Part shown: positions 39,613 through 56,772 of the stretch, piece after piece
How the letters are laid out: every line of letters begins with the position of its first letter
Numbering within the stretch: the stretch's first letter is position 1
NCBI GenBank assembly: GCA_017472225.1
Contig: JAFUQS010000072.1
Location: 1-64,000, forward strand
Direction of reading: 5' to 3'
From: Clostridia bacterium
GTDB lineage: Bacteria > Bacillota > Clostridia > Oscillospirales > Acutalibacteraceae
DNA length: 64,000 nucleotides
The notes under the pieces: generated by a model
Seen by the model: only the letters and a program-made list of their open reading frames with translations
Told to the model about the DNA's origin: nothing
Databases searched by the model: none
Translations under genes and position numbers: made by a program

Positions 39613-39996
39613 ATGTTTGAGCTTATAAAAGCTGTATTCGGTAATCTTCTTTTCTTCTTTCTGCATCTTAAGAATGTGACCTCCTTCCCGAAGCCGCTTT
39701 CTGCCGAAAAAGAAAGAGAGCTGTTAACCAGAATGAAAAAAGACGGTGACAAAAAAGCAAGAGAAGAGCTGATTGAGCATAACCTGAGATTGGTTTCACA
39801 CATTATAAAAAAATACTACTCAGGATATGACGAGCAGGAGGATTTGATTTCAATCGGCACAATCGGTCTTATAAAGGCAATTGATTCGTTCAACGCAGAC
39901 AAGGGAACAAGACTTGCCACCTATGCGGCACGGTGCATTGAAAATGCTATACAAACAAGGTGGCTTCATTATATAAAAAATCAGGCAATTATGTAA
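39613..39996 (+). CDS. sigK: Sporulation sigma factor sigma-K, N-terminal part (interrupted by a skin element)
   Basis: The first 111 codons encode a sigma-K pro-sequence (MFELIKAVFGNLLFFFLHL) and region 2: PLSAEKERELL, EHNLRLVSHIIKKYY, EDLISIGTIGLIKAI, GTRLATYAARCIEN. The family then continues with EILM; here, after the core GAAAATG (39940-39946), the frame continues into foreign codons (AIQTRWLHYIKN) and stops at 39994-39996. The remainder of the gene lies at 56419-56772 in the same phase. Sigma-K directs late mother-cell sporulation genes; GAGGTG lies before ATG 39613. The truncated product would lack region 4 and be inactive. Confidence 0.92.
   Translation: MFELIKAVFGNLLFFFLHLKNVTSFPKPLSAEKERELLTRMKKDGDKKAREELIEHNLRLVSHIIKKYYSGYDEQEDLISIGTIGLIKAIDSFNADKGTRLATYAARCIENAIQTRWLHYIKNQAIM
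39937..39950 (+). repeat. Left skin attachment site (attL) in sigK
   Basis: ATTGAAAATG of the sigK 5' part is joined to CTAT of the element. The core (G)AAAATG at 39940-39946 recurs at 46174-46178 (AAATG) and 56419-56425 in the same orientation. The location, at the Cys-Ile-Glu-Asn codons, is the same as in the Bacillus subtilis and Clostridioides difficile skin insertions as I recall them. Confidence 0.85.
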
Positions 39997-40009
39997 CTGC
40001 CTGATTTTT
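39977..40009. terminator. Bidirectional terminator at the left end of the element
   Basis: AAATCAGGCA and TGCCTGATTT form a perfect 10-bp stem with A-runs and T-runs on both sides. It ends the truncated sigK transcript and, on the other strand, the glycan operon. Confidence 0.85.
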
Positions 40010-40046
40010 ATGTTTAAGGATATATCTGGTTGCACTTTATCATAAA

Positions 40047-42245
40047 TCATTCATTTATCTGATACCACTTGATTTCGTTGGCATCAAGGTGAAGCTCAAA
40101 GCTTGAGCCGTCACCTACATAAACTGTTGTATCCTGCGGCTCATAGGTGTTATTAACAACGCAGTATTTGTTATTGTTAACATAAGCGTGAACTTCAACA
40201 TTGTAGTTTGTTGAATACCAACGAAGAAGCTCATCTTCAGCACTTGCACTCCATAATACGGCACGGTAAAGAACACGGCTGTTTTCAAATGAATAGGGTA
40301 AGCCGCTGATGTAAACGCCTCTGCCTTTGCCGAAGGATTTAACTGCCATCTGCACTTCTTCAGCGTGTCTTACGGCAAAGGGAAGCTCTGTTGCATTCTG
40401 AATAAGAACGGTTGTGCCGTCAAGAGCGACAATATTTTTCTTGCCTTCACCGAAATCCACATTGCCGTTTGTATCGGCAAGAATAAAGTGTTCTCTGTGC
40501 TCCTCGGTGTTGTATCTGCGTGTATTAAGAGTAAATCCGTTTTCCCTTTCAACGCCGAGAACATCATCAAGCTGGAAGAATTTACCCTGCCATTGATGTG
40601 CTGCAGGCTCACCGACACCGATAAATCCGCCGCCGTTATAAACAAATCTTTTTATGGCGGTGATAATTTGTTCGTCAGCCCAATATTCGCCGCCGGACTG
40701 TGCGGTATCTGCATCACCGACATTGATAATGGTGTCAAAATTATCAAGTATTGAGCTGTCATTTTTAATATCATCAAAGCTGATAAATGATACATCAAAG
40801 GGTGCACCGCTTAAAGCCTCAATAACGCCGAAGTAAGAATAATTCTGTCTGTAATAAAGACCGTGATGTACCATATGGTTTGACCAGGAACGCATTTTAC
40901 CCCAGCAGTTAAGCACTGCAACTCTTTTTACACAGTAAGGTGTTACGCCTTGAATATTATCATAAAGAGTGCGGAATTCATCACATACACTTGTGATATA
41001 GTCAACAAATTCGGGAAATTTAAGAGCCAGCTTCAGATATCCGCCGTAGCCGATACGCTGAATGGGGCTTCTGAGAATAGCACGTCTTGCCGTTACCCAG
41101 TTTACCTTTGCCTCATAAATCGGGTCGCCGCCCTCACAGAATACATCGGGGAAGAAATAAGGTAAAAATCTGCCCTCGGTGTATTTAACATTTTTGATAT
41201 CGCTGAACAAACGGAGTGTAGAACCGTTACCTACGCTGCCGACAACCGCATCAAGTCCGATTGCGGCAAAGTCATCCATAAAGGGCTCCATGCCAATCCA
41301 ATGGTCACCCATAAACATCATAGCTTCCTTGCCGTATTCGTGAACAATGTCAACCATTTCTTTTGCAAGAAGAGCAACCTCACGCATCTGGAATTTCTGG
41401 AAATCCTTGAATTCCTTTGAGGGAATACGGTAGGTGTTGTTCATATAGCCCTGGTCAATGATGAATTCGGGGCGGAATTTATAACCGACCTCCTTTTCAA
41501 ACTGTTCAAGAATATAGGGGCTTACAGAGGCGGAATAGCCAAACCAGTCAACAAATTTTTCCCTTGCAAGCTCATCGAACACAAGGGTGAACTGATGGAA
41601 AAATGTTGTAAATCTTACAACGTCAACATATTCGTGAGTTTCAAGAAATCTGCGGAGTCTTTTTAAGGAATGAGCCTTTGTTTTCGGCTGACGCACATCA
41701 AAGGTAATCTGAGGCTCAACGTCCTTCCATTCATTGACAACAGCGTTATACATATGTACCGGGTCCCACATAATATAAGCCAGGAAGCTTACTGTGTATT
41801 CGTGGAAAAGGACCGGATTATTAACAGTTACATCGCCGCTTGCTTCGTCATAGCTCCAGCAGTCGGGAGAAACCGCTTCGCCTGTTGTACGGTCAATAAC
41901 CTCCCACCATCTTTTAATATCATCAAAGCTGTTTACCTTGAGCATATCGGGATAAAGATGATCCATAAGGTGAATTTTCAAGGTGCTTTCAACAGCAGTA
42001 TAAAAGGGAGTCATAATATACATCTGCTGAACCTCGTCAGGGTTAGCTCTTGCCCATTCATTATCCTTTCTTGTTGTGTAATAGGTGGCATAAATTTTTG
42101 CCCCCGTATCCTTCAACTCCTTCGGGAATTCTGTGCCGTCACAGTCACGGATGGCATCAGCACCCCACTTTTCAACAATTTCAAGTGTTTCCTTAACAAT
42201 GTCCGTATCGGTGGGAATTGTTACACGTCCTTTTTTAATAGCCAT
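40047..42245 (-). CDS. 1,3-beta-galactosyl-N-acetylhexosamine phosphorylase (GH112)
   Basis: The 732-residue protein matches lacto-N-biose/galacto-N-biose phosphorylases over its full length: MAIKKGRVTIPTDTD at the start, a TIM-barrel with FTTFFHQFTLVFDELAREK, MFMGDHWIGMEPFMDDFAA and TEGRFLPYFFPDVFCEGGDP, an amidotransferase-like middle domain, and a C-terminal beta domain. The enzyme splits Gal-beta-1,3-GlcNAc or -GalNAc with phosphate into galactose 1-phosphate and the N-acetylhexosamine. No signal peptide is present, so it acts in the cytoplasm. It lies 11 bases after the GH136-like gene, with GAGGTG before the start. It is the last gene of the element A operon. Confidence 0.93.
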   Translation of the reverse strand: MAIKKGRVTIPTDTDIVKETLEIVEKWGADAIRDCDGTEFPKELKDTGAKIYATYYTTRKDNEWARANPDEVQQMYIMTPFYTAVESTLKIHLMDHLYPDMLKVNSFDDIKRWWEVIDRTTGEAVSPDCWSYDEASGDVTVNNPVLFHEYTVSFLAYIMWDPVHMYNAVVNEWKDVEPQITFDVRQPKTKAHSLKRLRRFLETHEYVDVVRFTTFFHQFTLVFDELAREKFVDWFGYSASVSPYILEQFEKEVGYKFRPEFIIDQGYMNNTYRIPSKEFKDFQKFQMREVALLAKEMVDIVHEYGKEAMMFMGDHWIGMEPFMDDFAAIGLDAVVGSVGNGSTLRLFSDIKNVKYTEGRFLPYFFPDVFCEGGDPIYEAKVNWVTARRAILRSPIQRIGYGGYLKLALKFPEFVDYITSVCDEFRTLYDNIQGVTPYCVKRVAVLNCWGKMRSWSNHMVHHGLYYRQNYSYFGVIEALSGAPFDVSFISFDDIKNDSSILDNFDTIINVGDADTAQSGGEYWADEQIITAIKRFVYNGGGFIGVGEPAAHQWQGKFFQLDDVLGVERENGFTLNTRRYNTEEHREHFILADTNGNVDFGEGKKNIVALDGTTVLIQNATELPFAVRHAEEVQMAVKSFGKGRGVYISGLPYSFENSRVLYRAVLWSASAEDELLRWYSTNYNVEVHAYVNNNKYCVVNNTYEPQDTTVYVGDGSSFELHLDANEIKWYQINE

Positions 42246-42256
42246 ATTGCACCTCG

Positions 42257-43546
42257 TTAATCTATAATGGTAATTTTGTTGTTTTTGAGTGTCATTTTTC
42301 CGTGGTTACGCTTTCTTATCAAGGGAACACCCTTGCGCATAAAGAATTCGTTATCGGCAACATAAGCATCAGGATTGCCCGACGGGCTCAATATACCGCC
42401 AAGGTCATCATAGCTGACATTGTTCGTGAAGGTATTATTCACCGCCTCACCAAGGCAGAACATTATGCAGCCGCCCTCATTAAGGCGTGAATAATTGTAT
42501 TTATAGGTTGTGCCGTCACCTGAGTCGGCATCATAAGCCATACCGTCCTGATTAAGCTTTGTATCAACGGCTTCGTTATAAACAAGAAGCGCATCCTTGC
42601 ATTTCCAGGGCCATATTGCCGCCGCAACCTTACCCATACGCTTGCCCGGCTTACGGTAATAACGGTCATTCATTTCCAGAGCGCAGCTGTCGGATACATT
42701 ATGCTCAACAAGAGGCTTTAATGCGTACATGGGAGTGATTGCATCTCCGCCTATATTTTTAAGATAATTACCCGTAATCAGAATGTTTTCATTGCCGTAT
42801 TTTTTGAAGGTTTCCTCATCAAGAAGCTTTGTTGCAAAATCAGTATGACGGTATGTATAGCCGACTGCAATGCCCCAACGGCTGACATTTTTCACATAGC
42901 ATCCTTCTACGGTTATGCCGTCATATCTTGCAACGCCTGTTTTTTCTTCATCTGCAGGCTTGAAGGCTGTGATATAAATTCCGCCGTTATTCATATGCTT
43001 GTTATACACATTGCCGTTAACATCATGGATAAACAGATTTTTGAGGATGACGGAATGTAAAGTGCCTCTGTTCTGAGCCACAACAGCCACGCCTGTTCTG
43101 TCCATTTTATCGGGTGCGGAATAATCCTGCAGAGTTGTAAACTCTTGCTTGTTTGCAATTTCAATATCCTCAACAATAATATTCTCAACATCGTAAAGCA
43201 AAACAGATGAGGAAACATTACCCTTGTAAATGTGACCGCTGTAATCAAGAGGGACACCGTAATCCTGCAGCCATATTCCGTTACCGTTTGTGTTTATGAA
43301 GGGTGGTCTGTCCCCGTCGCCGTAGGAAGCAATTGTGATAGCTTCACCGTTAATATCGCCACAGCTTTTCAGATGCAGAAACTGATTTTCAAATACGGAG
43401 CCTTTTTCCAGCAGAATTTGATCTCCCGGGTTTATCGAAAGGCTGTTGATTTTATCAAGAGTGAGAAAGGGAGTCTGAGGAGATAAGCCGTCATTACTGT
43501 TGCTTCCGTTAAGAGAGCTGACATAATATAGCGTTGATTTCTTCAT
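42257..43546 (-). CDS. GH136-like lacto-N-biosidase (right-handed beta-helix)
   Basis: The 429-residue protein starts TLYYVSSLNGSNSNDGLSPQ and continues as a right-handed parallel beta-helix (ENIIVEDIEIANKQ, DGITVEGCYVKNVSRWGIAV, ENILITGNYLKNIGGDAITP). Near residues 334-341 DGMAYDAD presents two Asp residues seven apart, the spacing I recall for the catalytic pair of GH136 enzymes. GH136 releases lacto-N-biose from type 1 chains of milk oligosaccharides or mucins; the GH112 gene immediately downstream would cleave that product. No signal peptide is seen, unlike secreted GH136 enzymes. Alternative: another pectate-lyase-fold glycosidase. Confidence 0.75.
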   Translation of the reverse strand: MKKSTLYYVSSLNGSNSNDGLSPQTPFLTLDKINSLSINPGDQILLEKGSVFENQFLHLKSCGDINGEAITIASYGDGDRPPFINTNGNGIWLQDYGVPLDYSGHIYKGNVSSSVLLYDVENIIVEDIEIANKQEFTTLQDYSAPDKMDRTGVAVVAQNRGTLHSVILKNLFIHDVNGNVYNKHMNNGGIYITAFKPADEEKTGVARYDGITVEGCYVKNVSRWGIAVGYTYRHTDFATKLLDEETFKKYGNENILITGNYLKNIGGDAITPMYALKPLVEHNVSDSCALEMNDRYYRKPGKRMGKVAAAIWPWKCKDALLVYNEAVDTKLNQDGMAYDADSGDGTTYKYNYSRLNEGGCIMFCLGEAVNNTFTNNVSYDDLGGILSPSGNPDAYVADNEFFMRKGVPLIRKRNHGKMTLKNNKITIID

Positions 43547-43961
43547 CGTATTGCTCCTCTCTTATCTTTTTATAAACAACCATGCAGGATTCCTTGAATC
43601 TGAACCTTTCGCCATGATACCTTGTGAACAGATCTCTGTTATTTCTGAAATACTGTTTAAGCTGCTTTTTTTCAATAGGCTTATATATATAATTGTGTTT
43701 TATGATATCTTTTTCGGCAATAAAATCAAGTCTGAAGCGTGTAAGCTCATAGTCAAGATAAACAGGCAGGGTAAATTGCTTGAGACCATACACAATTTCA
43801 CCGTTTTCAAGTGCCTGACGTCGCTTTTCGTTTTCGGTGTTACATCTTTGGACTACAGCTTCAAGGCTGCAATCATCAATAAGTCCGATTTTTTTTGCAA
43901 AAGCAAGACACGCAAGAGCATATTGCCTTTGCTCATCGGTTGTGAAATAAAAGGAATTCAT
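43509..43961 (-). CDS. Small chaperone-like partner of the GH136 enzyme
   Basis: The 150-residue helical protein overlaps the start of the GH136-like gene by 38 bases. Its C-terminal half (EKKQLKQYFRNNRDLFTRYH, then RFKESCMVVYKKI) resembles the SurA/PpiC chaperone segment that precedes peptidyl-prolyl isomerase domains. GH136 enzymes need a chaperone-like N-terminal domain or separate subunit for folding, so this is probably that subunit. AGGAGAG precedes ATG 43961. It is the first gene of the operon. The assignment rests on context and a weak pattern. Confidence 0.55.
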   Translation of the reverse strand: MNSFYFTTDEQRQYALACLAFAKKIGLIDDCSLEAVVQRCNTENEKRRQALENGEIVYGLKQFTLPVYLDYELTRFRLDFIAEKDIIKHNYIYKPIEKKQLKQYFRNNRDLFTRYHGERFRFKESCMVVYKKIREEQYDEEINAILCQLS

Positions 43962-44004
43962 AATAACTCTCCTATTTGGCAGAAAGCCGTTATTCTACTT
44001 CTAA

Positions 44005-44034
44005 ATTATAATATATACATACCGATTATTTCAA
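44005..44034 (-). promoter_or_regulatory. Promoter of the element A glycan operon
   Basis: The minus strand has TTGAAA (44029-44034), 18 bases and TATAAT (44005-44010), about 45 bases before the first gene. Confidence 0.7.
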
Positions 44035-44039
44035 GTCTT

Positions 44040-44082
44040 GTTTTGATTTATTTGATAAATTTTATGCATTTATGATCAAAAC
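44040..44082. promoter_or_regulatory. Inverted repeat just upstream of the glycan operon promoter
   Basis: GTTTTGAT (44040-44047) and ATCAAAAC (44075-44082) are perfectly complementary and flank an AT-rich 27 bases that holds further dyad bases (ATAAAT/ATTTAT). Its position directly behind the -35 suits an activator. No regulator for the operon is encoded in element A. Confidence 0.45.
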
Positions 44083-44116
44083 ACGCTTTTATTATGCTGA
44101 GTGCGAATTTTCAGCT

Positions 44117-44296
44117 TTAACTTCTGTCAGCCAATTTTTCCATCACCATATTGAATACCCTGATTTTTTCACTCCGTGACAGGTCGTCACGCCCGTTGAT
44201 ACGGTCCGCTATTATCTCTGCCTGAATTTTTGAAAAATGTGATTCCAATTCATCCTTTCCCTCTGCAGTAGCGGGCAACACAGCATTTATGGTCAT
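44117..44296 (-). CDS. Small 59-residue protein divergent from recombinase 1
   Basis: An open frame from ATG 44296 to TAA 44117-44119, with AAGGAAGG 5 bases upstream, encodes 59 residues, largely charged and helical (EGKDELESHFSKIQAEIIA, SRSEKIRVFNMVMEKLADRS). It is adjacent to and divergent from the serine recombinase. Small basic or helical proteins near serine integrases are often recombination directionality factors, but no motif proves this here. It could equally be an unrelated host gene. Confidence 0.55.
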   Translation of the reverse strand: MTINAVLPATAEGKDELESHFSKIQAEIIADRINGRDDLSRSEKIRVFNMVMEKLADRS

Positions 44297-44454
44297 AAAT
44301 TCCTTCCTTTCAGAAATTTATAAGCCGAACAATAATATGTAAACAGGCTTATGCTTCATTCATATTTATCCTGCAAAAAAAATATGAAATAAAGAAAAGC
44401 TTTATAATAAGCTTTTATTGTTTTAATTGTAATTACACCTGATTCGGAAGGCAG

Positions 44455-46707
44455 ATGATAATTGTGTTGATTAAGGAGAAGAAAAAATTTGCGGTATACA
44501 CCCGGAAATCCCGCTTCACCGGAAAAGGCGAAAGCATAGACCACCAAAAAAATCAATGTTTGAACAAAATCCTGGAGGTCCACAGTGATATTTCAGAGAA
44601 CGATATCATTTATTTTGAAGATGAAGGCTTCAGTGGAAAAAATATAAAAAGACCCGGATTTCAAAAGATGAAAAAAATGATTGAAAACGGCGAAATTGCG
44701 GCTGTTTATGTCTATTCACTTGACCGACTCAGCCGAAGCATTTCAGATTTCAGCACCTTCTATAAGCTGCTGAAGGACCACAACATCAGCTTTGTCACAG
44801 TCAATGTCAGCTTTGACACGGGCACGGTAAGCGGTGAAACAATGCTGAATATGCTCACTGTTTTTTCGGAATTTGAAAGAAATATAATTGCTGAAAGAAT
44901 CAGGGATAATATGCATGAGCTTGCAAAAAGCGGCAGATGGCTCGGCGGCACAGCACCAACGGGCTATGTGAGCTGTGAAACCGAAGGCAGCTATGCCCTT
45001 GACGGACGGGTGCGAAAGGCCTTCAAGCTTAAAAAAGCTGAAGATGAGCTTTCAACAATCAGAATAATATTTGACAAGTACATTGAATTTGCTTCACAAA
45101 ATAAGCTCATAACCTACCTGATGAACGAAGACTATAAAACAAAAAATGATATATATTTTTCAAGACAAGCGATCAAATCTATCCTCACAAATCCTGTGTA
45201 TGCTGCAGCCGATGAGAATATGTATGATTATTTTTCCTGTCTGGGAGCAAACATCTGCAGCCGGAAGGATGAATTCAACGGGAAGTACGGCATTATGGCA
45301 TACAACAAAACATTGCAGACAGACGGCAAATCGAACAAAAAGAAAAGCTACAGTGAATGGATTGTTGCCGTTGGAAAGCATGAACCGATAATAAGCAGTG
45401 ATCAGTGGTTAAAAGTGCAGAAAATTCTCAGATACAGAGGAAAAAGCTGTAAAAGCTATCCCCGAACCGAAACAGCTCTTTTATCAGGCCTTCTTTATTG
45501 CGGAAAATGCGGCAAGCATATGCGGCCCAAAGTGGGTGCAGCAAGAAAAGACGGCAGCAAACAATTTTCTTACAGATGTGTGCTTAAACAGGACAGTAAA
45601 AAGCAATTATGTACCGCCCGTAACATCGACGGCAACGGAATTGACTCGCTGATATCAGAAAAAATTTCTGAATTGCAAAAAGCTTTTAAAATTCATGCTT
45701 CGGACATAGCCGTTTTCAAGAAAAGAACAGACAAATCTGATATCGACCTTGACGCTGAAATCAAAAAAAGCGAAAAAGGTATTGCGGAAAAAAATAAAAA
45801 AATCAGAAATGCAGCAAAACAAGCTGCGGCATACGATATCAGCAACCCCGAGGATTCGGCAATGATAGATATTTTCAAAGAGCAGATAAAAGAGCTGATT
45901 GACGACAAAGCTGTGCTGGAAGCGAGAATCAGGAAGCTGCAGGCAGAAAAAGAAAGGTCAAGGGATCAGCTTTTCTGCCTTGAAGATTTTGCTGAGTCTC
46001 TTATATTACCCTGTCGGGATATGAGCTACGGAGAAAAGCTGAAGGTGATAAGAAGCGTTGTTGATTTTATTGTGTTTTATGAAGACACAAATTCGGCAGA
46101 CATAATCTTTAAGGGCTGCGGAATAACAAAAGAGGAATACTTCTCTTATTTAAAGCCGACAGGTATGGATAGCAAATGCTATTCTGTTCTGACAGACACA
46201 AAAGATGTTCAAGTAGCAATTAAAGGTACTTTTACACGAATTTTCGGAGAAAAAGGGTCGAGATTTGCTATTCCCGTGTCTGACATAATAAGGTTGCCTA
46301 TGGTTAATAATGCATTTTTGGGTAGTCAAATAAAATACTACAGAGAATTAAAAGGAATTACACAAGAAGAATTAGGGAAAGCTGTGGGAATATCAAAGTA
46401 CACAATAAGACGAATAGAAAATCAAGAAATGCTTTTAGTTAATCTTCCTTTGTTGGACAAGCTCATTACATATTTAGACATAGCAGATAAAATAACTTAT
46501 GAAGATGATTATTTAAGGTTTATAAAAAACAATCCTGTAAGTCAAATTAAAGCTTACAGGAAAAAGAAAAATATTACTATGTATCAATTGTCAGAGATTT
46601 TAAACACTTCATACTCTACAGTAAAAAAGTGGGAAAGCGGAAAACAAACAATTTCAAGAAAATGCTATGAACGATTAAAAAAATTACTTACATCTGATGT
46701 TCTTTAA
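44455..46707 (+). CDS. Large serine recombinase 1, fused to two Xre-type HTH domains
   Basis: The 750-residue protein has a resolvase domain with catalytic Ser19 (YTRKS), YSLDRLSRSISDF and ERNIIAERIRDNM, the recombinase domain, a zinc ribbon (LLYCGKCGKHMRPK) and a coiled coil (residues about 430-530). It should excise or integrate element A. At codon 575 the frame crosses AAATG (46174-46178) and enters element B, adding about 175 residues with HTH domains at about 621-655 (ITQEELGKAVGISKYTIRRI) and 698-745. Without element B it would stop at TGA after Lys574, close to the 562 residues of recombinase 2. Whether the fusion is active is unknown. Confidence 0.85.
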   Translation: MIIVLIKEKKKFAVYTRKSRFTGKGESIDHQKNQCLNKILEVHSDISENDIIYFEDEGFSGKNIKRPGFQKMKKMIENGEIAAVYVYSLDRLSRSISDFSTFYKLLKDHNISFVTVNVSFDTGTVSGETMLNMLTVFSEFERNIIAERIRDNMHELAKSGRWLGGTAPTGYVSCETEGSYALDGRVRKAFKLKKAEDELSTIRIIFDKYIEFASQNKLITYLMNEDYKTKNDIYFSRQAIKSILTNPVYAAADENMYDYFSCLGANICSRKDEFNGKYGIMAYNKTLQTDGKSNKKKSYSEWIVAVGKHEPIISSDQWLKVQKILRYRGKSCKSYPRTETALLSGLLYCGKCGKHMRPKVGAARKDGSKQFSYRCVLKQDSKKQLCTARNIDGNGIDSLISEKISELQKAFKIHASDIAVFKKRTDKSDIDLDAEIKKSEKGIAEKNKKIRNAAKQAAAYDISNPEDSAMIDIFKEQIKELIDDKAVLEARIRKLQAEKERSRDQLFCLEDFAESLILPCRDMSYGEKLKVIRSVVDFIVFYEDTNSADIIFKGCGITKEEYFSYLKPTGMDSKCYSVLTDTKDVQVAIKGTFTRIFGEKGSRFAIPVSDIIRLPMVNNAFLGSQIKYYRELKGITQEELGKAVGISKYTIRRIENQEMLLVNLPLLDKLITYLDIADKITYEDDYLRFIKNNPVSQIKAYRKKKNITMYQLSEILNTSYSTVKKWESGKQTISRKCYERLKKLLTSDVL
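46170..46182 (+). repeat. Middle att-like core between elements A and B
   Basis: TAGC-AAATG-CTAT shares AAATGCTAT (46174-46182) with attL (39942-39950), and its left half ATAG(C)AAATG resembles attR ATAG(A)AAATG. It therefore looks like element A right end joined to element B left end. Confidence 0.65.
46300..46707 (+). CDS. Two-HTH regulator at the left end of element B (internal start within the recombinase 1 fusion)
   Basis: ATG 46300 follows TAAGG by 7 bases and would give a 135-residue protein consisting of two Xre-type HTH domains (GSQIKYYRELKGITQEEL; QIKAYRKKKNITMYQLSEIL). In the current arrangement the same codons form the C-terminus of recombinase 1. A stand-alone product may regulate element B or act as directionality factor. 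Only transcript or protein data can show which form exists. Confidence 0.45.
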   Translation: MVNNAFLGSQIKYYRELKGITQEELGKAVGISKYTIRRIENQEMLLVNLPLLDKLITYLDIADKITYEDDYLRFIKNNPVSQIKAYRKKKNITMYQLSEILNTSYSTVKKWESGKQTISRKCYERLKKLLTSDVL

Positions 46708-46864
46708 GATAGGACAATGTATGCTCCAAAGTTTTTTGCTTGTCGGTTTCGCTGATTTCAAGATTTTTAATTGTTTCTATAATAAGACATGCCTTAAAAT
46801 CTGCACAGCGGTCATTTAATATATGTACTTTATCTTCACTTGGAAAACGGATATAATAATTCAT
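46688..46864 (-). CDS. Small hypothetical protein in element B
   Basis: A 58-residue frame from ATG 46864 has GAGGTG at 6 bases and overlaps the end of the HTH region convergently by 20 bases. It begins MNYYIRFPSEDKVHILNDR and has helical ends. No family is recognised; it is a second candidate for a small accessory recombination protein. Confidence 0.45.
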   Translation of the reverse strand: MNYYIRFPSEDKVHILNDRCADFKACLIIETIKNLEISETDKQKTLEHTLSYLKEHQM

Positions 46865-46966
46865 CGAATACACCTCACTAAAGTGTATTCAAAAAATGTA
46901 AAAATTTGCTTGTCCTCATTAAAAATTAAATATTCCATACCCCAAGCCAACATATATGCAAAAAGC

Positions 46967-46998
46967 GGAGAGTAAAACCTGTTCAGGTTCTACTCTCC
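46967..46998. terminator. Hairpin downstream of the M48 gene
   Basis: GGAGAGTA(A)AACCTG and AGGTT(C)TACTCTCC form a long stem with a short loop between the M48 gene end and the 58-residue gene. Confidence 0.6.
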
Positions 46999-47048
46999 TA
47001 AACTTTTTGCACTTTATCTATTAAGGGGTAAGGGATATTATGGCTTAG

Positions 47049-47927
47049 TCAAGCCGTTTTTGTCAGCATATTTTCTAATCTTTCAATCCTTGCAGATGTA
47101 TAAGGGTGCGAAGCCTTTAATCTTTCAGTAAGTGTTGCTTTTCTTGGTATTGATATTTTGCTGATTACATACAAAGAACTTTTAAGTTCATCACCAAAAC
47201 CGATTAAATAAGCATATTCATCGGCTAAATATTCACTGTATCTGCTGTTTAAAGCAATTATCACATCGCCGATAAAAAGGAACAAAAATATTGAAACATC
47301 GATTAAAAGCCTTGAAAGGAAAGCAACAAAAGCAATAGCCAAAATTACAACATTCTTTCCGCTTAAAGCATTTGAAACGGCCTGAATAATATTCATAACA
47401 AGCCTCAAAACAAAGATAATAAGAGAGAAAAAGCCATTACCAACTAACTTAATAAGCAAAGCCTTTGTATCACCGTTTGCCATGTGTCCGAGTTCGTGAG
47501 CAAGTATGCCCTTTAATTCATCCGCACTGAAAGCATATATTGCCCCTCTTGTAACTGCAACAGTTTTTCTGCCGACTGCAAAAGCATTTACAGCCATGCT
47601 GTCAGTAACATATAATTCAATATCTTGATTGATGTTTGGTGTAAAGTTCTTTGCTTCTTCGAAAACTTCCTCAAATATAGGGAGTAAATAATCTTTATCA
47701 TCTTGTGTCTGAATCGGCTTTGCTCCTTCCATTATCCGCACAATAACCTCACCAACAGGAGATAAGGCAAGACCCACACAAGCACCATATATTAAAGCTG
47801 TTAGTATAAGACTGATTAAAATATCACTTGTAAACAGATAAACAACGAAAACAGCAAAAGAAAAATAGAAATAAAACCATATAAGATATGCCCAATTAGA
47901 TTTGAAAAATCCACCGTTACTTTTCAT
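47049..47927 (-). CDS. M48-family (HtpX-like) membrane zinc protease
   Basis: The 292-residue protein has two N-terminal membrane helices, the zinc motif HELGH (in LAHELGHMANGDTKALL), helices after it, and EYLADEYAYLIG with the third ligand Glu. HtpX-type enzymes degrade misfolded membrane proteins. ATG 47927 is preferred with GAGGTG upstream. A copy inside a mobile element is unusual for a housekeeping protease; it could process an element-encoded membrane protein. Confidence 0.85.
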   Translation of the reverse strand: MKSNGGFFKSNWAYLIWFYFYFSFAVFVVYLFTSDILISLILTALIYGACVGLALSPVGEVIVRIMEGAKPIQTQDDKDYLLPIFEEVFEEAKNFTPNINQDIELYVTDSMAVNAFAVGRKTVAVTRGAIYAFSADELKGILAHELGHMANGDTKALLIKLVGNGFFSLIIFVLRLVMNIIQAVSNALSGKNVVILAIAFVAFLSRLLIDVSIFLFLFIGDVIIALNSRYSEYLADEYAYLIGFGDELKSSLYVISKISIPRKATLTERLKASHPYTSARIERLENMLTKTA

Positions 47928-48020
47928 TAGTAAGTCACCTCGATTTATTGATAATATAGAGAAATAAACTATATTTTGCTTAAGCCTCGTAACTGCCAAA
48001 CTTATGCTTTTTTATCATTT

Positions 48021-49456: not shown

Positions 49457-49506
49457 AACAGTAATTAAAATATGATTGCTGTATTTGGTTATACCGATTT
49501 ATAAAA

Positions 49507-50142
49507 CTAATCAAATCCATTTTTCCTCACCTCTGAAAGTTCAATAATTTTAATATTAGGGTAGTCCCCTTTCATAACAGAAAGAAAACTTGCAATACTT
49601 GTATGCTTATTGGGTACGACCCATATTTGTATGTAATAGTCTGTAAAATTAGATATAATATTTTTAGAAAATCTGTCCTTAGATTTCATGTTGAGTTCAA
49701 CCTCAACACAGAAAAGATTTCCGTCTTTTGTAAATACAAAATCGGGTCTGTGCTTACGAACTCCAAAACCGTCCTTTTGATGTAACTGCTTTTCAGTCAG
49801 CATATCCGAAAAAGCAATACCAAACTTTTTATTAAAATATATAGCTGTATCTAATACTGCAATATCGTGCGTGATTTGTTCAATTCGTATCTGCTCGGCT
49901 CTGTCGGGTGCATTTATCAATCTTCTGCCCGAAGCTGTAAGGCTGTAAATGCCGGGGATTCCGTATATAATTCTCTTTCTGCTTAAAAGCCCAGCATTTA
50001 TTAACTTATGAAGCCTTCTGTCACAAGCTCTCTGACCTGTAAAACCGCATAAAGCACAAATGTGCTTACCTGTAACAACTCGCCAACGGTCAACTTCCTT
50101 TAAAATCAAATAATCACGCTCAACTAATCTGACACCACTCAC
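49507..50142 (-). CDS. Replication-relaxation family protein
   Basis: The 211-residue protein has a winged-helix start (LVERDYLILKEVDRWRVVTG, LCGFTGQRACDRRLHKLINA) and an alpha/beta domain (RPDFVFTKDGNLFCVEVELN) matching the plasmid replication-relaxation family (PF13814) as I know it. Such proteins are often found with VirD4-like ATPases on mobilisable elements. It is directly upstream of the coupling ATPase gene in the same direction. It could nick or bind an origin such as the palindromes at 50.2-50.7 kb. Confidence 0.7.
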   Translation of the reverse strand: MSGVRLVERDYLILKEVDRWRVVTGKHICALCGFTGQRACDRRLHKLINAGLLSRKRIIYGIPGIYSLTASGRRLINAPDRAEQIRIEQITHDIAVLDTAIYFNKKFGIAFSDMLTEKQLHQKDGFGVRKHRPDFVFTKDGNLFCVEVELNMKSKDRFSKNIISNFTDYYIQIWVVPNKHTSIASFLSVMKGDYPNIKIIELSEVRKNGFD

Positions 50143-50886
50143 AAAATCACCACCAACAAAAAAGCCTGTCTATATTAAAATTTATGAATGTTCTTATATA
50201 AAAAGAACATATATTTAAACTAAAACATTTAATATGCGCCTGTAACCTCTGTGCAATTACTTACAGGCAACCCCGAAATGTAATTGCACAGACAAAAAAC
50301 TACAGCCTAAAAGGCAAAACAAGCAATACAGGAAACTATATTCACTGCTTCGCAGTAGTGCTTTTCCCATTAGGGTGCGAAAAAGCATATTGCCGAAATT
50401 TCAGACAATAATTTGTTCTGAAATTATCGGCAATAAAAAGCTGTAAAAAGTCACAGGCACATATTAAATATCTAATCTCTATATATAACTATTATACCAA
50501 CTAACCCCTATACTAACTACACTACTAAACTAATAAACAAAAACTAATAAGTAAAACAAATGAAAAATATATAAATATAAAAAATAAAACTAACTATCAC
50601 ACAACACACAAAAAACAAAACAACAAGGTAGCAACTGCAAATACAATAATATGAGATGTAACAACATGATGAGAGGGTGAGGTCTCGGGAACTTTTTGCC
50701 GAGACCTCACCCTATCGTTGTTGCTCGAATGTGTTGTATTTAAAGCAGTTGCGGACTGTTATATATTTTTCAAATATTCTTAAAAGTGTTCTTTTGTGAT
50801 AGGAACACTTTTGTTACAACAAAAAAGAACACTAACACGCAAAAACAGACAAGCTTTTACAACCTGTCTGTGTTCTAAAAAAATAT
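50143..50886. other. Gene-free AT-rich region with a cluster of large palindromes; candidate oriT or replication origin
   Basis: About 740 bases have no gene but four inverted repeats: CTGTGCAATTAC/GTAATTGCACAG (50249-50260 and 50280-50291), interlocked with CCTGTAA/TTACAGG (50239-50267); ACTGC/GCAGT (50344-50356); ATTGCCGA..TTTCAGA with TCTGAAAT..TCGGCAAT (50389-50434); and GGGTGAGGTCTCGG/CCGAGACCTCACCC (50675-50712). They lie between the relaxation gene and an Xre gene, where an origin would be expected. Confidence 0.5.
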
Positions 50887-51207
50887 TTAATTTGTTAATT
50901 CAATTCCCAAACGGATTAAATCTTTAATAAGTTGTTCTTTTTCCTTAGGTACATTTTGAAGGATAGAAAGTATAGAATCCCATTCGCACTTATCGACTTC
51001 GCCTTTAATAATATAATCTAAACTTAAACCTAAAATGTTACTTAAATTTACAAGGTTTTCTATTGAAAGACCTGCAATGCCTCTTTCGACTTCACTAAAA
51101 TGCTTAACAGAAATGCCAAGATGTTCTGATACTACTTCCTGTGTAAGGAGCAACTTTTTTCTCCTTGTTTTTATTCTTAATCCCATTTCTTTTTTATAGT
51201 CTATCAT
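50887..51207 (-). CDS. Xre-family regulator of element B
   Basis: The 106-residue protein has one HTH domain (RIKTRRKKLLLTQEVVSEHL, GISVKHFSEVERG) and a helical C-terminus of about 40 residues. AGGTGAT precedes ATG 51207. It is divergent from the M4 protease gene and close to the palindrome cluster, so it may control the element. Target sites were not identified. Confidence 0.85.
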   Translation of the reverse strand: MIDYKKEMGLRIKTRRKKLLLTQEVVSEHLGISVKHFSEVERGIAGLSIENLVNLSNILGLSLDYIIKGEVDKCEWDSILSILQNVPKEKEQLIKDLIRLGIELTN

Positions 51208-51272
51208 ATAATCACCTAACCTAATATGTAAATTTTAACATAACTTAATACGGCTAAAAACAAGGCGGTATG

Positions 51273-51301
51273 TTGACAAACTAAACCTTTAATGTTAATA
51301 T
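51273..51301 (+). promoter_or_regulatory. Promoter of the M4-like protease gene
   Basis: TTGACA (51273-51278), 17 bases and TAATAT (51296-51301) lie about 55 bases before ATG 51357. Confidence 0.65.
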
Positions 51302-51356
51302 TAAATTGAAGTATTGATTATTATAAACATTTTTAAAAGAAAGGTCGGTAAAAAAC

Positions 51357-54300
51357 ATGGAAAACAAAAACACTCGAAAGAAGAAAACTATTTTAATTCT
51401 TATAGCAATTTTAATTACTATTCTAATTGTTACAACAATAGGAATCAGCTTCCTTAAAAAAAGCAACAGCAGTATTGAAAAAGAGTTAGATAACATTGTA
51501 ATGCTAAATGATGGAGAACTGCCTGACATTACAATGAACGCTGAAGGCAATCCCTCTTTTATTTCAGGTGCTTATAGCGATAAAATTGTAACTGATTTTG
51601 ATAGTGCAATCGACTCTTTGAATGATGTAAAAAATTTAATGGGAATAGAAAACCCTAGTGAAGAATATAAGGAAAAGGAATTGACAACATCTGATAGTGG
51701 TTTTTTTTACAAGATACAGCAATATTATGAAGGAATACCAGTGTATGGAATAGAATTGATTATAGTAACAGATTTTTACGGAAAGACCACTTGTTTAGTT
51801 GGAGACTATAAAAAAATTAATATTTCAACTAAACCGAATATAAGTGAAAATGAAGCAAGAAAAATAATAGGTTGCGATGAAAACGCTGAATTAGAATTAT
51901 GTGTTTATGCTTTAGATGTTGAACCAGTTTTGTGTTGGCATAAGTTAGGCTTAAATGAAGTGTTCATTTCGGCTTATTCTGGAGAAATGGTTACCACTAT
52001 TACAAATATTCATACATTTTCTTCTGTTGGAAATGACTTGTATGACGTTTCTCGGTCTTTTGAGGTCGACAAAAACGGAAATACATATATAATGAGAGAT
52101 ACTACAAGAGGTATAAACGTTTACAATGATAACAACTTAACGACAAAAGCAGAAATAGATAATTTGACATTCTCAAATATTTTAAAACATGCTACTATCA
52201 TACAAAGTAATGATAATGTATGGAATGATAAAGAAAGTGTTCAAGCTATGTATGCTGTAAAAAATGCTATAGATTTTTATAAATCTAAAGTTCAACAAGC
52301 ATTTATCAATAATAAAATAAGTGAAATTAATGTTCTTGTAAATTATGGTCAAAACTATGAAAATGCTTTTAGTGCTACTGATGAAAAAAATCTCAGTACA
52401 ACTTATTTATGCATAGGTGATGGCAAAAACTATATTAACTGTTATGATGTATTATACCATGAATTTACGCATTCTATTATTACAGCAACCTGTAATTTGA
52501 AATACTTAAATCAATCTGGGGCAATTAATGAATCCTATGCTGATATATTGGGAAATTTATTAGAAGACAGTGACGATTGGTTAATTGGTGAAGATTTAGG
52601 TTCTGGAATAATAAGAAATTTACAGTCTCCTAGTGATTGTTTACAACCTGAAAAAGTAAATGACAACAATATGCATGCATATTGTTATGAAAATCATGAC
52701 CATTCTAAGTGCTACAAAAATCATAATCATAATGATGGTGGTTGTACAACTTGCGACTATGGAGGTGTACATACAAATAGTGGTATTATAAATCATGCTG
52801 CATATTTAATGTGGGAAAATGGTATAGATAAATCGGAATTATTGTCATTATTTTGTAAGTCATTAGAATACATGACATCTAATACAAATTTTTTAGGATG
52901 CAGGTCAGCCGTTTTGCGGTCAGCAAGAGAATTAAATTTTTCAACAGACAAAATTACAATAATTGCAAATGCTTTTTCAAAAGTAGGCATTAAACCAAAT
53001 GTTGCTGATTCTCGAATTGCAAATGTTATTGGCAAAGTCGTAGATTCAGAAACGAAAGAGAGTATTAGTGATGTAAGGATTATCGTAAAGAGAGTTATAG
53101 GCGATAAAACAAGTGTTGCCGGAACTATTTCATATACAAATACTAAAGGTGAATTCAGTTTACTATTGCCTACAGGAGTTTATGAAATAACTTTATCTGT
53201 CGGAGGATATGAAGACTCTGTAATTGGTGATGTAAAAATTGACGATTGGGAAAAAGTTACTCTTAATGATATTCTTTTGAAAAAAGAAGAAATATTAATT
53301 GCGACAGGCACAGTCAAAGACAACGACACAAGCAAAGCTATCAAAGGTGTTACAGTTGAAGCTATTGACAATAAAAGTGACAGCTTCGACCCGATAGCAA
53401 CCACAACAACAGACGAAAACGGTAAGTTTACTTTAGAACTTCCGTATGGTAATTATTCTTTATCATTCAAGCATGAAAATTATGAGGAATATGAAATGTA
53501 CTTGAATAATATCAGTGCTAATAATGCTGTTTTACTTGAAGATGTGATACTTAATGCAAAAATCATAAAATTAACAGACGACTATGCTAAAAACCTTTGG
53601 GAAACAGCAAATGATATTTATTGTTCATGGGTAATTCATAGAGACCATAACGGATATACTGATTCAAGTGATAGTCTTGAGGTAGGTGCAGAGTTATTTG
53701 GTGGCGATACTGATTGGTTATATTATCATGTAAATCACAATGAAATTACTTCAGTTTCTCAGTTAAATAAGCATTTATCAAATTATTTTGATAGCAATAT
53801 CTGTAATGATATAACAAGTGATTTTATTGATGTTAATGGAAAACTGTATTCGAAAATGATAGACGGATTAGGAGACGATTTCAGAGTTTTTAAGGATGTA
53901 ACAGTAAAAGAACAGTCAGATAATACTGCGATTATATCAATAAATTTTTATGATATTGTTTATGGCGAAAGCTATAATATTGACCAAACATTACGCTATG
54001 AAAATGGCAAATGGATTTTTGCAGACTATTTTAATTATTGCTTTGGTAATTATAAAAGTGTTGATAGTAAAGACGATACATCAAACAATATAAATGAGGA
54101 GCCAATCCTATATGATTTAGATTTTATGATTACCAAAGAAAATGTTAGAGCATTCTTAAATGGTTGCCTAAATCATATTGAAGATTATAACGCTAGAATA
54201 TATTCGATAGATGTGTCGTACGATGTTGACCATTACGAATTTATGAAGGCTGAAATAAAAATTCAAACTACGGGTTTGTCAGAAGATAGCATTTATGTAT

Positions 54301-54620
54301 GTTTCTATCCTAAAAGAAATTCAGGTTCAACTTATTTATATTATATTAGTGTTGGAGGAATTCATGTTGACAATAAAATGGATAGTGAATATGTTAGCAG
54401 ACAAATTATAATAGAAGCAATAGAAATACATTTATCTAAAGTCTCATTGTATGAAGCACAAATTGAATTAATAGATAACAATTCTAGTTCTCAAGCTAAT
54501 GATTTTTATTTTTTACCGAATGAGGAATATAGATGTGATATAGGTATAACTTATTCACCTTGGAACACATATTATACATATTCGATAAAGAATACTTCTA
54601 TCGAGGACAAATATAAATAA
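51357..54620 (+). CDS. Large secreted thermolysin-like (M4) metalloprotease with carboxypeptidase-regulatory-like repeats
   Basis: The 1087-residue protein has an N-terminal anchor (TILILIAILITILIVTTIGI), an FTP/PepSY-type pro-region (about 80-220) and an M4 domain with HEFTH at 368-372 and GAINESYAD giving Glu392 as third zinc ligand, then GGVHTNSGIINHAAYL. A Cys/His-rich insert (CYENHDHSKCYKNHNHNDGG) precedes that His. Two regulatory-like beta domains follow (VIGKVVDSETKESISDV; TGTVKDNDTSKAIKGVTVEA), then about 380 unassigned residues. It probably acts outside the cell. AAGGT precedes ATG. Confidence 0.8.
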   Translation: MENKNTRKKKTILILIAILITILIVTTIGISFLKKSNSSIEKELDNIVMLNDGELPDITMNAEGNPSFISGAYSDKIVTDFDSAIDSLNDVKNLMGIENPSEEYKEKELTTSDSGFFYKIQQYYEGIPVYGIELIIVTDFYGKTTCLVGDYKKINISTKPNISENEARKIIGCDENAELELCVYALDVEPVLCWHKLGLNEVFISAYSGEMVTTITNIHTFSSVGNDLYDVSRSFEVDKNGNTYIMRDTTRGINVYNDNNLTTKAEIDNLTFSNILKHATIIQSNDNVWNDKESVQAMYAVKNAIDFYKSKVQQAFINNKISEINVLVNYGQNYENAFSATDEKNLSTTYLCIGDGKNYINCYDVLYHEFTHSIITATCNLKYLNQSGAINESYADILGNLLEDSDDWLIGEDLGSGIIRNLQSPSDCLQPEKVNDNNMHAYCYENHDHSKCYKNHNHNDGGCTTCDYGGVHTNSGIINHAAYLMWENGIDKSELLSLFCKSLEYMTSNTNFLGCRSAVLRSARELNFSTDKITIIANAFSKVGIKPNVADSRIANVIGKVVDSETKESISDVRIIVKRVIGDKTSVAGTISYTNTKGEFSLLLPTGVYEITLSVGGYEDSVIGDVKIDDWEKVTLNDILLKKEEILIATGTVKDNDTSKAIKGVTVEAIDNKSDSFDPIATTTTDENGKFTLELPYGNYSLSFKHENYEEYEMYLNNISANNAVLLEDVILNAKIIKLTDDYAKNLWETANDIYCSWVIHRDHNGYTDSSDSLEVGAELFGGDTDWLYYHVNHNEITSVSQLNKHLSNYFDSNICNDITSDFIDVNGKLYSKMIDGLGDDFRVFKDVTVKEQSDNTAIISINFYDIVYGESYNIDQTLRYENGKWIFADYFNYCFGNYKSVDSKDDTSNNINEEPILYDLDFMITKENVRAFLNGCLNHIEDYNARIYSIDVSYDVDHYEFMKAEIKIQTTGLSEDSIYVCFYPKRNSGSTYLYYISVGGIHVDNKMDSEYVSRQIIIEAIEIHLSKVSLYEAQIELIDNNSSSQANDFYFLPNEEYRCDIGITYSPWNTYYTYSIKNTSIEDKYK

Positions 54621-54627
54621 CTGATAA

Positions 54628-54660
54628 ATTCCCCATTCAAGCACTCGTTTGAATGGGGTG
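54628..54660 (+). terminator. Terminator of the M4 protease gene
   Basis: CCCCATTCAA and TTTGAATGGGG form a 10-bp stem with a 7-base loop, followed by TGCGTTTT. Confidence 0.75.
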
Positions 54661-54737
54661 CGTTTTAAACAAAATAATTCTAATAACAATTTCAAGCATA
54701 TAATTAAATAAATCTAAAAAGACAGGAGTTGAATTAA

Positions 54738-56426
54738 ATGGAAAAAGATAACAGAAAATATGCGGTGTATTCGAGAAAATCGAAATATACAGGAAAAGGT
54801 GAAAGCATAGGAAATCAGATTGAACTGTGCAAAAACTATTTGACTACAAAATACAATGCTAAAGCTGATGAAATTGTCGTTTATGAAGATGAGGGGTACA
54901 CAGGTGCAAACACCAAGCGACCCGAATTTCAAAAAATGATAAAAGATATAAGAAATAAAAAAATCAAAACAGTTATATGCTACAGATTAGACAGAATAAG
55001 CCGTAATGTATTGGACTTCTGCAACTTGAAAGACGAGCTTTCAGATTATAATGTAGCTTTTATATCCATAAGAGAAGATTTTGACACATCAACTCCTATG
55101 GGGTCAGCTATGCTTTTAATAACTTCTGTCTTTGCACAGCTTGAAAGAGATACCATTGCCGAGCGTATAAGAGATAATATGCTTGAACTTGCAAAAACAG
55201 GTAGGTGGCTTGGAGGTACTACCCCCTACGGCTTTAAATCGCAGGAAGTAGAAAAAATATCAGTTGACGGAAAGAAAAGAAAGCTTTTTAAGCTCTCCCC
55301 CATAAAAGAAGAAAAGGAAGTTGTAAACCTTATCTTCGACAAATATATTGAGCTTAAATCACTTACAAAATTGGAAACATATTTTATAAAGCACGATATT
55401 AAAACAAGAAATGATATATACTTTTCAACAACAGCTTTAAGAAGCATTTTAACCAATCCTGTTTATGCTATGGCTGACAATGATACTTTAAATTATTTTA
55501 TCGAAAGAGAAGCCGAGATATTTCAAGAAGAAAACTTTGACGGAAATAACGGCTTAATGGTTTATAATAAAACCATTCAAAAAACAGGTAAATCAAAAAG
55601 AATCCGTGATGTTTCAGACTGGATAGTTGCAGTAGGTAAACACAAAGGTTTTATTACAGGTAAAAAATGGGTGCAGATTCAAAATCTAATTGAATTAAAT
55701 GCAGACAAACGATACAGAAAACCTAATGTAAACAACGCTCTTTTATCGGGAATAATCTATTGCAGTAATTGCGGCAGCTTTATGCGACCAAGAACAAACA
55801 GCAAAATTTACGAAGACGGCACACGCTCATTCAGTTATATATGTGAGCTTAAAGATAAAAGCCGTTGCACAAAATGCAACAGTAAAAATATAATGGGTAT
55901 AGAAATTGACAGAAAGGTAATTGAAATAATAAAAGAAATCACTTCCAGCAGAGGAGAAATATATAAAAAAATAAAAGATTTATCCAAAGGTGAATTTGTA
56001 AAAGAAAAAACAAACACAGATGAAATTAAAACTTTGCAAAACACAAAAACACAAAACGAAAAAGCCATTTCAAAATTGGTACAAAAAATTGCCGTTGTTG
56101 ATACTGAATTTGTCGAGAATTTGACAGATGAAATAAGAAAGCTAAAAGAAGCTAACAGCAAAATTGACAAAACTCTTGCCGATTTGCAAAACACTGAATA
56201 TAATCAAAGCATACAAATTGAATATGCAAAACTTGTACTTAATATTTTTGATACTTACTTTCAGACTTTCGATAAATTAGATTTAAAAACCAAAAGATGT
56301 TTAATTAAGATGATAATCGACACAATAGAAATCGAAAACGAAAATGTATATATAAATCTTGTCGGATATTGCTCAAATGCTGATAGCCAAAGGGTTTTGT
56401 GCCAATCAGACCTACATAGAAAATGA
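54738..56426 (+). CDS. Large serine recombinase 2 (SpoIVCA-like), adjacent to the sigK 3' part
   Basis: The 562-residue protein has catalytic Ser15 (YSRKS), YRLDRISRNVLDF, ERDTIAERIRDNMLELAKTG, the recombinase domain, a zinc ribbon (IIYCSNCGSFMRPR with later CTKC) and a coiled coil before the C-terminus. It is closely related to recombinase 1 by eye. Its stop codon TGA (56424-56426) lies inside the right att core, overlapping the sigK 3' frame. Position and family suggest it excises the element in the mother cell, like SpoIVCA. GGAGTTG precedes ATG 54738. Confidence 0.92.
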   Translation: MEKDNRKYAVYSRKSKYTGKGESIGNQIELCKNYLTTKYNAKADEIVVYEDEGYTGANTKRPEFQKMIKDIRNKKIKTVICYRLDRISRNVLDFCNLKDELSDYNVAFISIREDFDTSTPMGSAMLLITSVFAQLERDTIAERIRDNMLELAKTGRWLGGTTPYGFKSQEVEKISVDGKKRKLFKLSPIKEEKEVVNLIFDKYIELKSLTKLETYFIKHDIKTRNDIYFSTTALRSILTNPVYAMADNDTLNYFIEREAEIFQEENFDGNNGLMVYNKTIQKTGKSKRIRDVSDWIVAVGKHKGFITGKKWVQIQNLIELNADKRYRKPNVNNALLSGIIYCSNCGSFMRPRTNSKIYEDGTRSFSYICELKDKSRCTKCNSKNIMGIEIDRKVIEIIKEITSSRGEIYKKIKDLSKGEFVKEKTNTDEIKTLQNTKTQNEKAISKLVQKIAVVDTEFVENLTDEIRKLKEANSKIDKTLADLQNTEYNQSIQIEYAKLVLNIFDTYFQTFDKLDLKTKRCLIKMIIDTIEIENENVYINLVGYCSNADSQRVLCQSDLHRK

Positions 56427-56772
56427 AATACTCATGTTCTTCAGGGGCAAAAAAAAGGATTCAAATGTTGTTTCCGTTAACGAGCCAATCGACACGGACA
56501 GTGAAGGCAATCCCCTGACGTTGATTGATGTTATTTACACCGAGGACACCATAAGTGATGACCTTGACCTTAAAAGAAAAACAGCCCGTTTATACGAGCT
56601 GATTGAATCTATGACCGATGAACGGGATAAGGAAATTATAATCAAGCGTTACGGGCTTTATAATCAGAGAGAGCTTACTCAACGGGAAATTGCAAAGGAA
56701 ATGGGAATTTCACGATCTTATGTTTCGAGAATTGAAAAGCGGGTATTGAGTGAGCTCAGGAATAAGTTCTGA
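56359..56772 (+). CDS. sigK: Sporulation sigma factor sigma-K, C-terminal part
   Basis: The true sigma-K codons start at 56419 (ENEILMFFRGKKKDSNVVSV) and end at 56772. They contain region 3 and region 4 (NEPIDTDSEGNPLTLIDVI; ELTQREIAKEMGISRSYVSRIEKR). The first 20 codons shown belong to the recombinase 2 overlap in another frame and are not sigma-K. The phase equals that of the N-terminal part, so excision yields a 226-residue protein. Alone, the fragment has no normal start and should not be made as a working factor. Confidence 0.92.
   Translation: MSDIAQMLIAKGFCANQTYIENEILMFFRGKKKDSNVVSVNEPIDTDSEGNPLTLIDVIYTEDTISDDLDLKRKTARLYELIESMTDERDKEIIIKRYGLYNQRELTQREIAKEMGISRSYVSRIEKRVLSELRNKF
56415..56428 (+). 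repeat. Right skin attachment site (attR) in sigK
   Basis: ATAGAAAATG of the recombinase 2 end is joined to AAATACTCATG of the sigK 3' part; the core GAAAATG is 56419-56425. Confidence 0.85.

Follow-up and report, generated by a model that had tools for sequence, protein, structure and literature searches.

The window analysed here is the whole 64,000-bp stretch at positions 1 to 64,000 of contig JAFUQS010000072.1 (assembly GCA_017472225.1), from a Clostridia bacterium of the Acutalibacteraceae. At the codon pair IE-N (39944 | 56422), its sigK gene is interrupted by an insert of 16.5 kb with the make-up of skin elements, a textbook programmed DNA rearrangement usually seen as relics that merely interrupt sigK. 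The 5′ half of sigK (39613..39944, + strand; Sigma70_r2) ends in IEN at the crossover, and the 3′ half (56422..56772, + strand) carries Sigma70_r4; joined, they match the uninterrupted sigK of 25 relatives along almost all of the 226 amino acids (aa). Two large serine recombinase genes are present, both reading toward the sigK 3′ half and both with Resolvase, Recombinase and zinc-ribbon domains: recombinase 1 (44455..46176, + strand), of 574 codons up to an internal core site, and, near the right end, recombinase 2 (54738..56426, + strand), of 562 aa, whose TGA stop combines core bases with one base of sigK.

The crossover motif AAATG is found at 39942, 46174 and 56421, in the contexts GAAAATGCTATAC (left), ATAGCAAATGCTAT (middle, 46169-46182) and CATAGAAAATGAAAT (right). 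Comparison with other right and left ends places the common crossover bases at the dinucleotide AA (39943-39944, 46175-46176 and 56422-56423), which in sigK are bases 1 and 2 of the Asn codon of IE-N-EIL; the dinucleotide lies within AAATG as a direct repeat at both ends of the insert, and an exchange there restores sigK in frame. The left site (39936..39952; GCATTGAA.AA.TGCTATAC) is of the attL type, with a host B arm and the P′ arm of a first element, A, and the right site (56416..56429; CATAGAA.AA.TGAAAT) is of the attR type, with the P arm of a second element, B, and a host B′ arm. Both outer sites have one host arm each, whereas the middle site (46169..46182; ATAGCA.AA.TGCTAT) has element arms on both sides, the P arm of A and the P′ arm of B, and looks like an attP. 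The sequence ATAGNAAATGCTAT has a single occurrence on the two strands of the 64 kb, and ATAGNAAATG is found at 46169 and 56416 only. An earlier, sequence-only reading of this DNA had noted the third core copy at 46174-46178 and the matching right ends (ATAGC-AAATG and ATAGA-AAATG), both of which were recovered; the left-end match it also listed exists as a shared 9-mer, AAATGCTAT, which occurs at five places in the window and by itself carries little weight.

As a whole, the insert consists of element A (39945..46174; 6,232 bp from AA to AA) and element B (46175..56421; 10,247 bp from AA to AA), each with its own recombinase, between outer L and R sites and around an internal P.P′ site. The GC content is 0.413 in the left flank, 0.409 in A, 0.314 in B and 0.425 in the right flank, and the best single change point within the insert is 46303, 127 bp off the middle site, in line with the composition change already suspected there; the near-equal recombinase lengths (574 aa up to the middle core against 562 aa) were likewise as first described. 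An A-type skin alone, seen as two contig ends, is present in another genome of the genus (G018). Its recombinase, 61% identical to recombinase 1 over the 445 residues present on the contig, ends in AGC AAA TGA next to the sigK 3′ half, and its left end shares 27 of 33 bases with that of A vs. 13 of 33 with that of B. Both ends of A resemble those of G018, so at either end A represents a distinct kind of element. Among 34 genomes of the genus, the window included, sigK is uninterrupted in 25 (59-81% identity, one match over almost all of the 226 aa) and split in two, the window and G018, and the other seven have only weaker, paralogue-kind matches or none. A relative with an A-type element only and relatives with no insert, for which the sequence-only reading had called, were thus found, but no near relative with B alone was found among the genomes scanned; the nearest relative of recombinase 2 in the family sample (58% identical) belongs to another genus and also lies at sigK. 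With the P.P′ middle site, the G018-like ends of A and the composition break, two elements in tandem are the most likely content of this insert.

The claim that B had entered the right attachment site of A did not hold up as the single route, for the sites fit equally well an insertion of A into the left site of B, a fusion of circles, or a recombination of attR of A with attL of B. An origin in which two free circles fused (attP x attP), or attR of A and attL of B recombined between two chromosomes, without entry of B into A, is given an even chance. Among large serine recombinases, attP x attP is untypical. All these routes yield the same three sites, and SCC (staphylococcal cassette chromosome) recombinases perform an attS x attS reaction (PMC5595907, source seen in part). 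From the sites, the order in which A and B arrived cannot be told.

The middle site also falls inside a coding sequence. Here, the stop codon usually lent by sigK is missing from recombinase 1, and its gene reads in frame into a helix-turn-helix (HTH) sequence at the left end of B (46177..46707, + strand; 176 codons, two XRE-type HTH domains), giving an open reading frame (ORF) of 750 aa (44455-46707). Relatives of recombinase 2 were collected from 250 genomes of the family, 29 of which had a match at E ≤ 1e-60, with a scan of the genus added. Among 32 recombinase loci, the sigK 3′ half lay beside the recombinase in 15 and the 5′ half in one, the other 16 being outside the stop count. Sixteen right ends, window and G018 included, had a recombinase abutting the sigK 3′ half, and in 14 of them the recombinase stop is a TGA read from the third crossover base, its last base supplied by sigK. 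As for the two exceptions, the recombinase of G124 is truncated, and in G077 (locus L107) sigK has AACGAA without the TGA, so that the recombinase ORF continues for about 22 codons into the sigK 3′ part, in a frame other than that of sigK.

At left ends, the continuation in the recombinase frame is typically a tail of about 200 codons with two XRE-type HTH domains. Eight of the first 12 left ends examined were open for 176-215 codons and mutually homologous, and a profile of eight tails was used to scan 398 genomes of the family; 394 genomes of the order were scanned as well. In the family, 20 strong tails (E < 1e-45; weaker, mostly part-length HTH matches were left uncounted) were found: 17 beside the sigK 5′ half, the window's, one behind another recombinase end (G172) and one beside the sigK 3′ half in the opposite orientation (G128). 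In the order, 20 genomes matched at 1e-25, of which 13 were new and strong (E < 1e-36), two matches near 1e-26 and five already known genomes not being counted as new; 11 of the 13 tails lie beside the sigK 5′ half, one beside the 3′ half (G492) and one at another locus (G663). On named genome contigs, 26 of 32 tail loci adjoin the sigK 5′ half, and cultured carriers include Anaeromassilibacillus senegalensis An867 (G254; Acutalibacteraceae in NCBI), Oscillibacter valericigenes An907 and Merdimmobilis hominis An559.

Pooling the scans and G018 gave 29 tail-bearing left ends beside the sigK 5′ half. All 29 tails start in the recombinase frame, 27 remain open for at least 150 codons in the frame of the core, and in 13 a host stop closes the tail frame at most one codon upstream. 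Tail codons 21-92 have a ratio of nonsynonymous to synonymous substitutions (dN/dS) of 0.08 in a group of four sequences and 0.11 in a group of nine, while the first ATG of the tail is codon 126 in all 13. By its sequences, the tail is under purifying selection and, because protein-level selection, a frequent lack of a start and the kept recombinase frame go together, it would look like the second half of the recombinase gene; the earlier view of the HTH tail as a by-product was accordingly dropped in favour of this conserved half. Both sigK-flanked ends were known in 13 genomes besides the window, and 10 of them would give a circle with recombinase and tail in frame (G018, G062, G077, G053, G254, G157, G063, G129, G148 and G161, but not G222, G235 and G124; for G018, G129, G148 and G161, whose two ends come from different contigs, these were taken as one element). 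Judged by sequence, attP is internal to the coding sequence of the recombinase.

An inverted repeat to which the recombinase may bind is formed by GAGCC in several P arms and GGCTC in several P′ arms, similarly spaced from the core. Loci L142 (G128), L209 (G492) and L153/L096 (G158) are seemingly in the opposite orientation, with the HTH or the recombinase end abutting the other sigK half. The strong tail of L208 (G663) has no sigK match nearby and possibly marks another target site.

Recombinase and tail also occur together in databases. Among the best 120 of 820 proteins matched by the 750-aa window protein, six (the window's own included) combine a recombinase with the HTH domains. A search with the tail of protein P0058 returned 25 proteins, of which 19 have a Resolvase domain in front (P0133-P0136 without the end of the second HTH, P0142 with a shifted tail), one is a recombinase fragment with a tail, and five have the tail joined to other genes. 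The P0058 junction, ...PLGEDSE|CYTIAAEQSAIEV..., agrees with the prediction made from the two unjoined ends of G254, where the recombinase stops after ...PLGEDSE and the tail begins CYTIAAEQSAIEV.... Homologues of recombinase 1 with the HTH tail, which had been put forward as grounds for rejecting a tandem, therefore do exist, but they sit at P.P′ joins, whereas 14 of the 16 integrated relatives stop at the core; this explains the fusion and does not refute the tandem. Concerning the five other joins, in P0138 the same tail comes after part of an ABC permease (FtsX domain), in P0127 after a different protein, and a cut tail precedes other proteins in P0131, P0140 and P0141 (after a short lead); these may be other target genes or rearrangements.

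When 22 fusions were cut at the join (P0089, whose junction lacks the motif, was excluded) and their halves compared, P0121 and P0126 had recombinases 100% identical and tails 82% identical, while tails were 99% identical on recombinases 56% identical in P0122 and P0125, and 97% on 49% in P0110 and P0137. Near-identical tails thus occur on recombinases only 49-64% alike, and one recombinase occurs with different tails. The halves have likely been exchanged at the core, as would follow if elements recombine with one another there, as in a tandem; the window fixes one such hybrid, recombinase 1 with the HTH tail of B. A second tandem is probable in G172, where the tail is preceded, at the contig start, by 28 in-frame codons ending in EPSGEDSK, like a usual recombinase end and unlike the EPLGADSE of the right-end recombinase of that genome. 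In all, P.P′ joins account for two of the 33 strong tails of the two scans.

Taking together the sites, the stop at the core, the frame-matched and constrained tail, the natural fusions and the mixed pairs, a probability of roughly 0.8 is assigned to the reading that two skins, A and B, are joined end to end at an attP-type site, that attP lies inside the recombinase gene and that excision would rebuild both sigK and a recombinase-HTH gene. In the integrated state, the recombinase would end at the core (AA.TGA, with sigK supplying the final A), leaving its HTH continuation stranded beside the sigK 5′ half; on the free circle, the two halves would form one gene, so that excision would simultaneously restore sigK on the chromosome and recombinase-HTH on the circle. 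As this gene would be complete only on the circle, the tail is predicted to be produced chiefly in the free state. The function proposed for it is that of a state switch: the repressor-like HTH domains would anchor to, or repress from, the element DNA and favour re-integration, and integration would strip the tail, leaving a short enzyme ready for excision.

Large serine recombinases need a directionality factor for attL x attR, and their attP reacts with attB only. By these rules, A and B are predicted to leave together via the outer sites as the productive pair, most likely by the short form of recombinase 2, while the middle site would have no partner until attB is free and recombinase 1 would be locked by the tandem in its tailed form. 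The joint circle would carry P(B).P′(A), recombinase 2 gaining just the 19-codon remnant at the left end of A, and recombination between elements at the core would generate the shuffled recombinase/tail pairs of the databases. With more reserve, we lean towards a wider interpretation, in which these Clostridia skins are a bacterial serine-recombinase counterpart of self-splitting integrases, excision rebuilding sigK and a recombinase-HTH switch, with the core as a domain-shuffling joint for tandems and the window as a frozen hybrid.

Several observations weigh against this account. Four of the first 12 left ends are tail-less (A of the window with 19 codons, G124 with nine, G222 and G235 with 65 each), with no convincing HTH relatives in any of the four, so that the tail is not required by every element. 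Two of the 29 tails are broken (G371 by a TAA at codon 2, G711 by a frame shift near codon 100), and codons 1-20, which hold the P′ arm, have no protein-level constraint (omega of 1.0-1.5). A host-derived in-frame ATG lies at most six codons upstream of the tail in 10 of the 29, and each of the 13 sequences used for dN/dS has GTG or TTG codons ahead of codon 126; the tail could then be made alone in some hosts. Six of the database fusions lie on contigs of 63-402 kb and are not simply small circles. In G172, only 28 codons of the upstream recombinase are present, where the contig ends, and an in-frame TAG interrupts the tail. Neither a circle nor a transcript or protein was observed, and phage, plasmid and viral records gave no free form: none of 952 phage records with a match covered 80% of P0058; among 2,798 plasmid records, two reached this coverage, with 22-23% identity (Novosphingobium and Streptomyces); in a Ruminococcus albus plasmid, the recombinase is annotated as a separate gene with no HTH gene fused to it; and viral contigs gave three tail loci and one partial recombinase but no recombinase-tail fusion. 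Nor was a circle joining recombinase 2 to the tail of B seen, the only relative of that tail at E ≤ 1e-5 being the window protein.

On the side of these records, tail relatives were noted in viral contigs L196 and L197, that of L196 directly after a terminase-like gene (our own ORF reading) and with a core-like GCAATGCTAT at its start. L223 and L224, 24-kb circular Clostridioides difficile records listed as plasmids, have a recombinase 40% identical to P0058 beside pdu and AbgT transporter genes and are maybe excised elements.

The host-borne ATG codons and the internal GTG and TTG codons of many tails are also what would be expected if the tail were an ordinary, separate HTH gene near the left end, with its own or a host-borne start, and if its in-frame fusion at P.P′ were incidental. 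This is considered unlikely, roughly a one-in-five matter, given the strong constraint on codons 21-92, ahead of the first ATG, the host stop that closes the frame within one codon upstream in 13 of the 29 left ends, the recombinase frame at the start of all 29, two of them broken further in, and the 14 of 16 recombinases that have no stop ahead of the core. That skins of two strains were misjoined in the metagenome assembly, which has 111 contigs, is very improbable, as the two parts meet precisely at the crossover and in frame, natural fusions have the same kind of join, and the 750-aa protein has two member sequences on four contigs, the longest of 464,225 bases, even though these assemblies may not be independent. 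Equally improbable is a single skin element with two recombinase genes and a chance middle site, even if gin is one element with three serine recombinase genes (PMC5595907, seen in part), for P and P′ arms meet at the same base, the two ends of A match G018 while the left end of B does not, the GC content steps, and the other 15 right ends have one such recombinase next to the sigK 3′ half in searched stretches of up to 20-40 kb.

Concerning the other contents of element A, the 19-codon remnant of the HTH tail (39945..40001, + strand) stands at the left end, for which the match to G018 is given above. It is followed by a lacto-N-biose / galacto-N-biose phosphorylase gene of 732 aa (40047..42245, - strand; identified by Pfam), 85-88% identical to proteins of three other genomes of the genus (one match partial), and by genes for proteins of 429 aa (42257..43546, - strand) and 150 aa (43509..43961, - strand) without Pfam match. 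This 3.9-kb interior (40047-43961; loci L217, L218 and L219) shares about 75% DNA identity with a block on the chromosomes of G031 and G020, and part of it matches G024 at 72%; A gives the impression of a skin that has shed its tail and perhaps taken up a host operon.

Element B encodes, besides its tail and recombinase 2, an M48 peptidase (47049..47999, - strand), a TraG/TrwB-like coupling ATPase (48110..49456, - strand), a Replic_Relax-type protein (49507..50142, - strand; a weak match just at the cut-off), an XRE-type regulator (50887..51207, - strand) and an M4 (thermolysin-like) peptidase of 1087 aa with carboxypeptidase-regulatory domains (51357..54620, + strand). The structural model of its tail has a mean predicted local distance difference test (pLDDT) score of 75, with the first 45 residues poor, and resembles repressor domains of SinR, HipB and P22 c2 (best E of 0.0027, none at 0.001).

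If the proposed account is true, the same event that splits sigK would also split the element's own recombinase gene, which would provide a built-in record of the integrated vs. the free state and a handle on the choice between integration and excision by serine recombinases. It would extend self-splitting integrases, archaeal-only according to one review, to bacterial serine recombinases, and the natural exchange of recombinase C-terminal domains at a defined dinucleotide would be of interest to integrase engineering.

The comparison with known systems rests on sources seen in part. In open-access PubMed Central (PMC) articles, the scope of the search, with subscription journals and preprints outside it, no tandem skins were found, as the sequence-only reading had supposed, and no serine recombinase that loses an HTH tail on integration. 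In the skins of Bacillus subtilis (SpoIVCA/Skr) and C. difficile (CD1231/CD1234), a large serine recombinase element likewise splits sigK, and precise excision would restore it (PMC5025042, PMC6957869); in the window, there are two elements in tandem, and the recombinase ORF reads through attP into an HTH tail. The C. difficile recombinase alone performs attP x attB in Escherichia coli, and CD1234 is needed for attL x attR (PMC5025042), whereas neither of two small ORFs of the window tried as directionality factors, of 59 aa (44117-44296) and 61 aa (46688-46873), had convincing relatives near other recombinases (weak matches, E of 0.002-0.02).

Suicidal recombinases are exclusively archaeal according to one review (PMC8371274). 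In these SSV-type integrases, as here, attP lies inside the gene and integration splits it (PMC8371274), but the enzyme disrupted there is a tyrosine integrase considered inactive. The window enzymes have serine recombinase domains, and the short form of recombinase 2 keeps all three Pfam domains, losing the HTH tail only, so that a loss of catalytic function on integration is not expected from its sequence. In the integration-dependent immunity of mycobacteriophage BPs, attP also lies in a coding gene and integration gives a C-terminally shorter protein (PMC4557955); there the repressor gene itself is cut, whereas here a recombinase gene would lose a repressor-like domain. Finally, composite SCC/ACME (arginine catabolic mobile element) cassettes, Dehalococcoides ssrA islands and gin in gerE are tandem or composite serine-recombinase elements at one site (PMC5964201, PMC5595907, PMC3146451), not at sigK and, in the parts of these sources drawn on here, without a described exchange of C-terminal domains between recombinases. 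Each of these known systems, from the archaeal suicidal integrases and the BPs repressors to the SCC composites, the Dehalococcoides islands and gin, has one feature in common with the elements described here.

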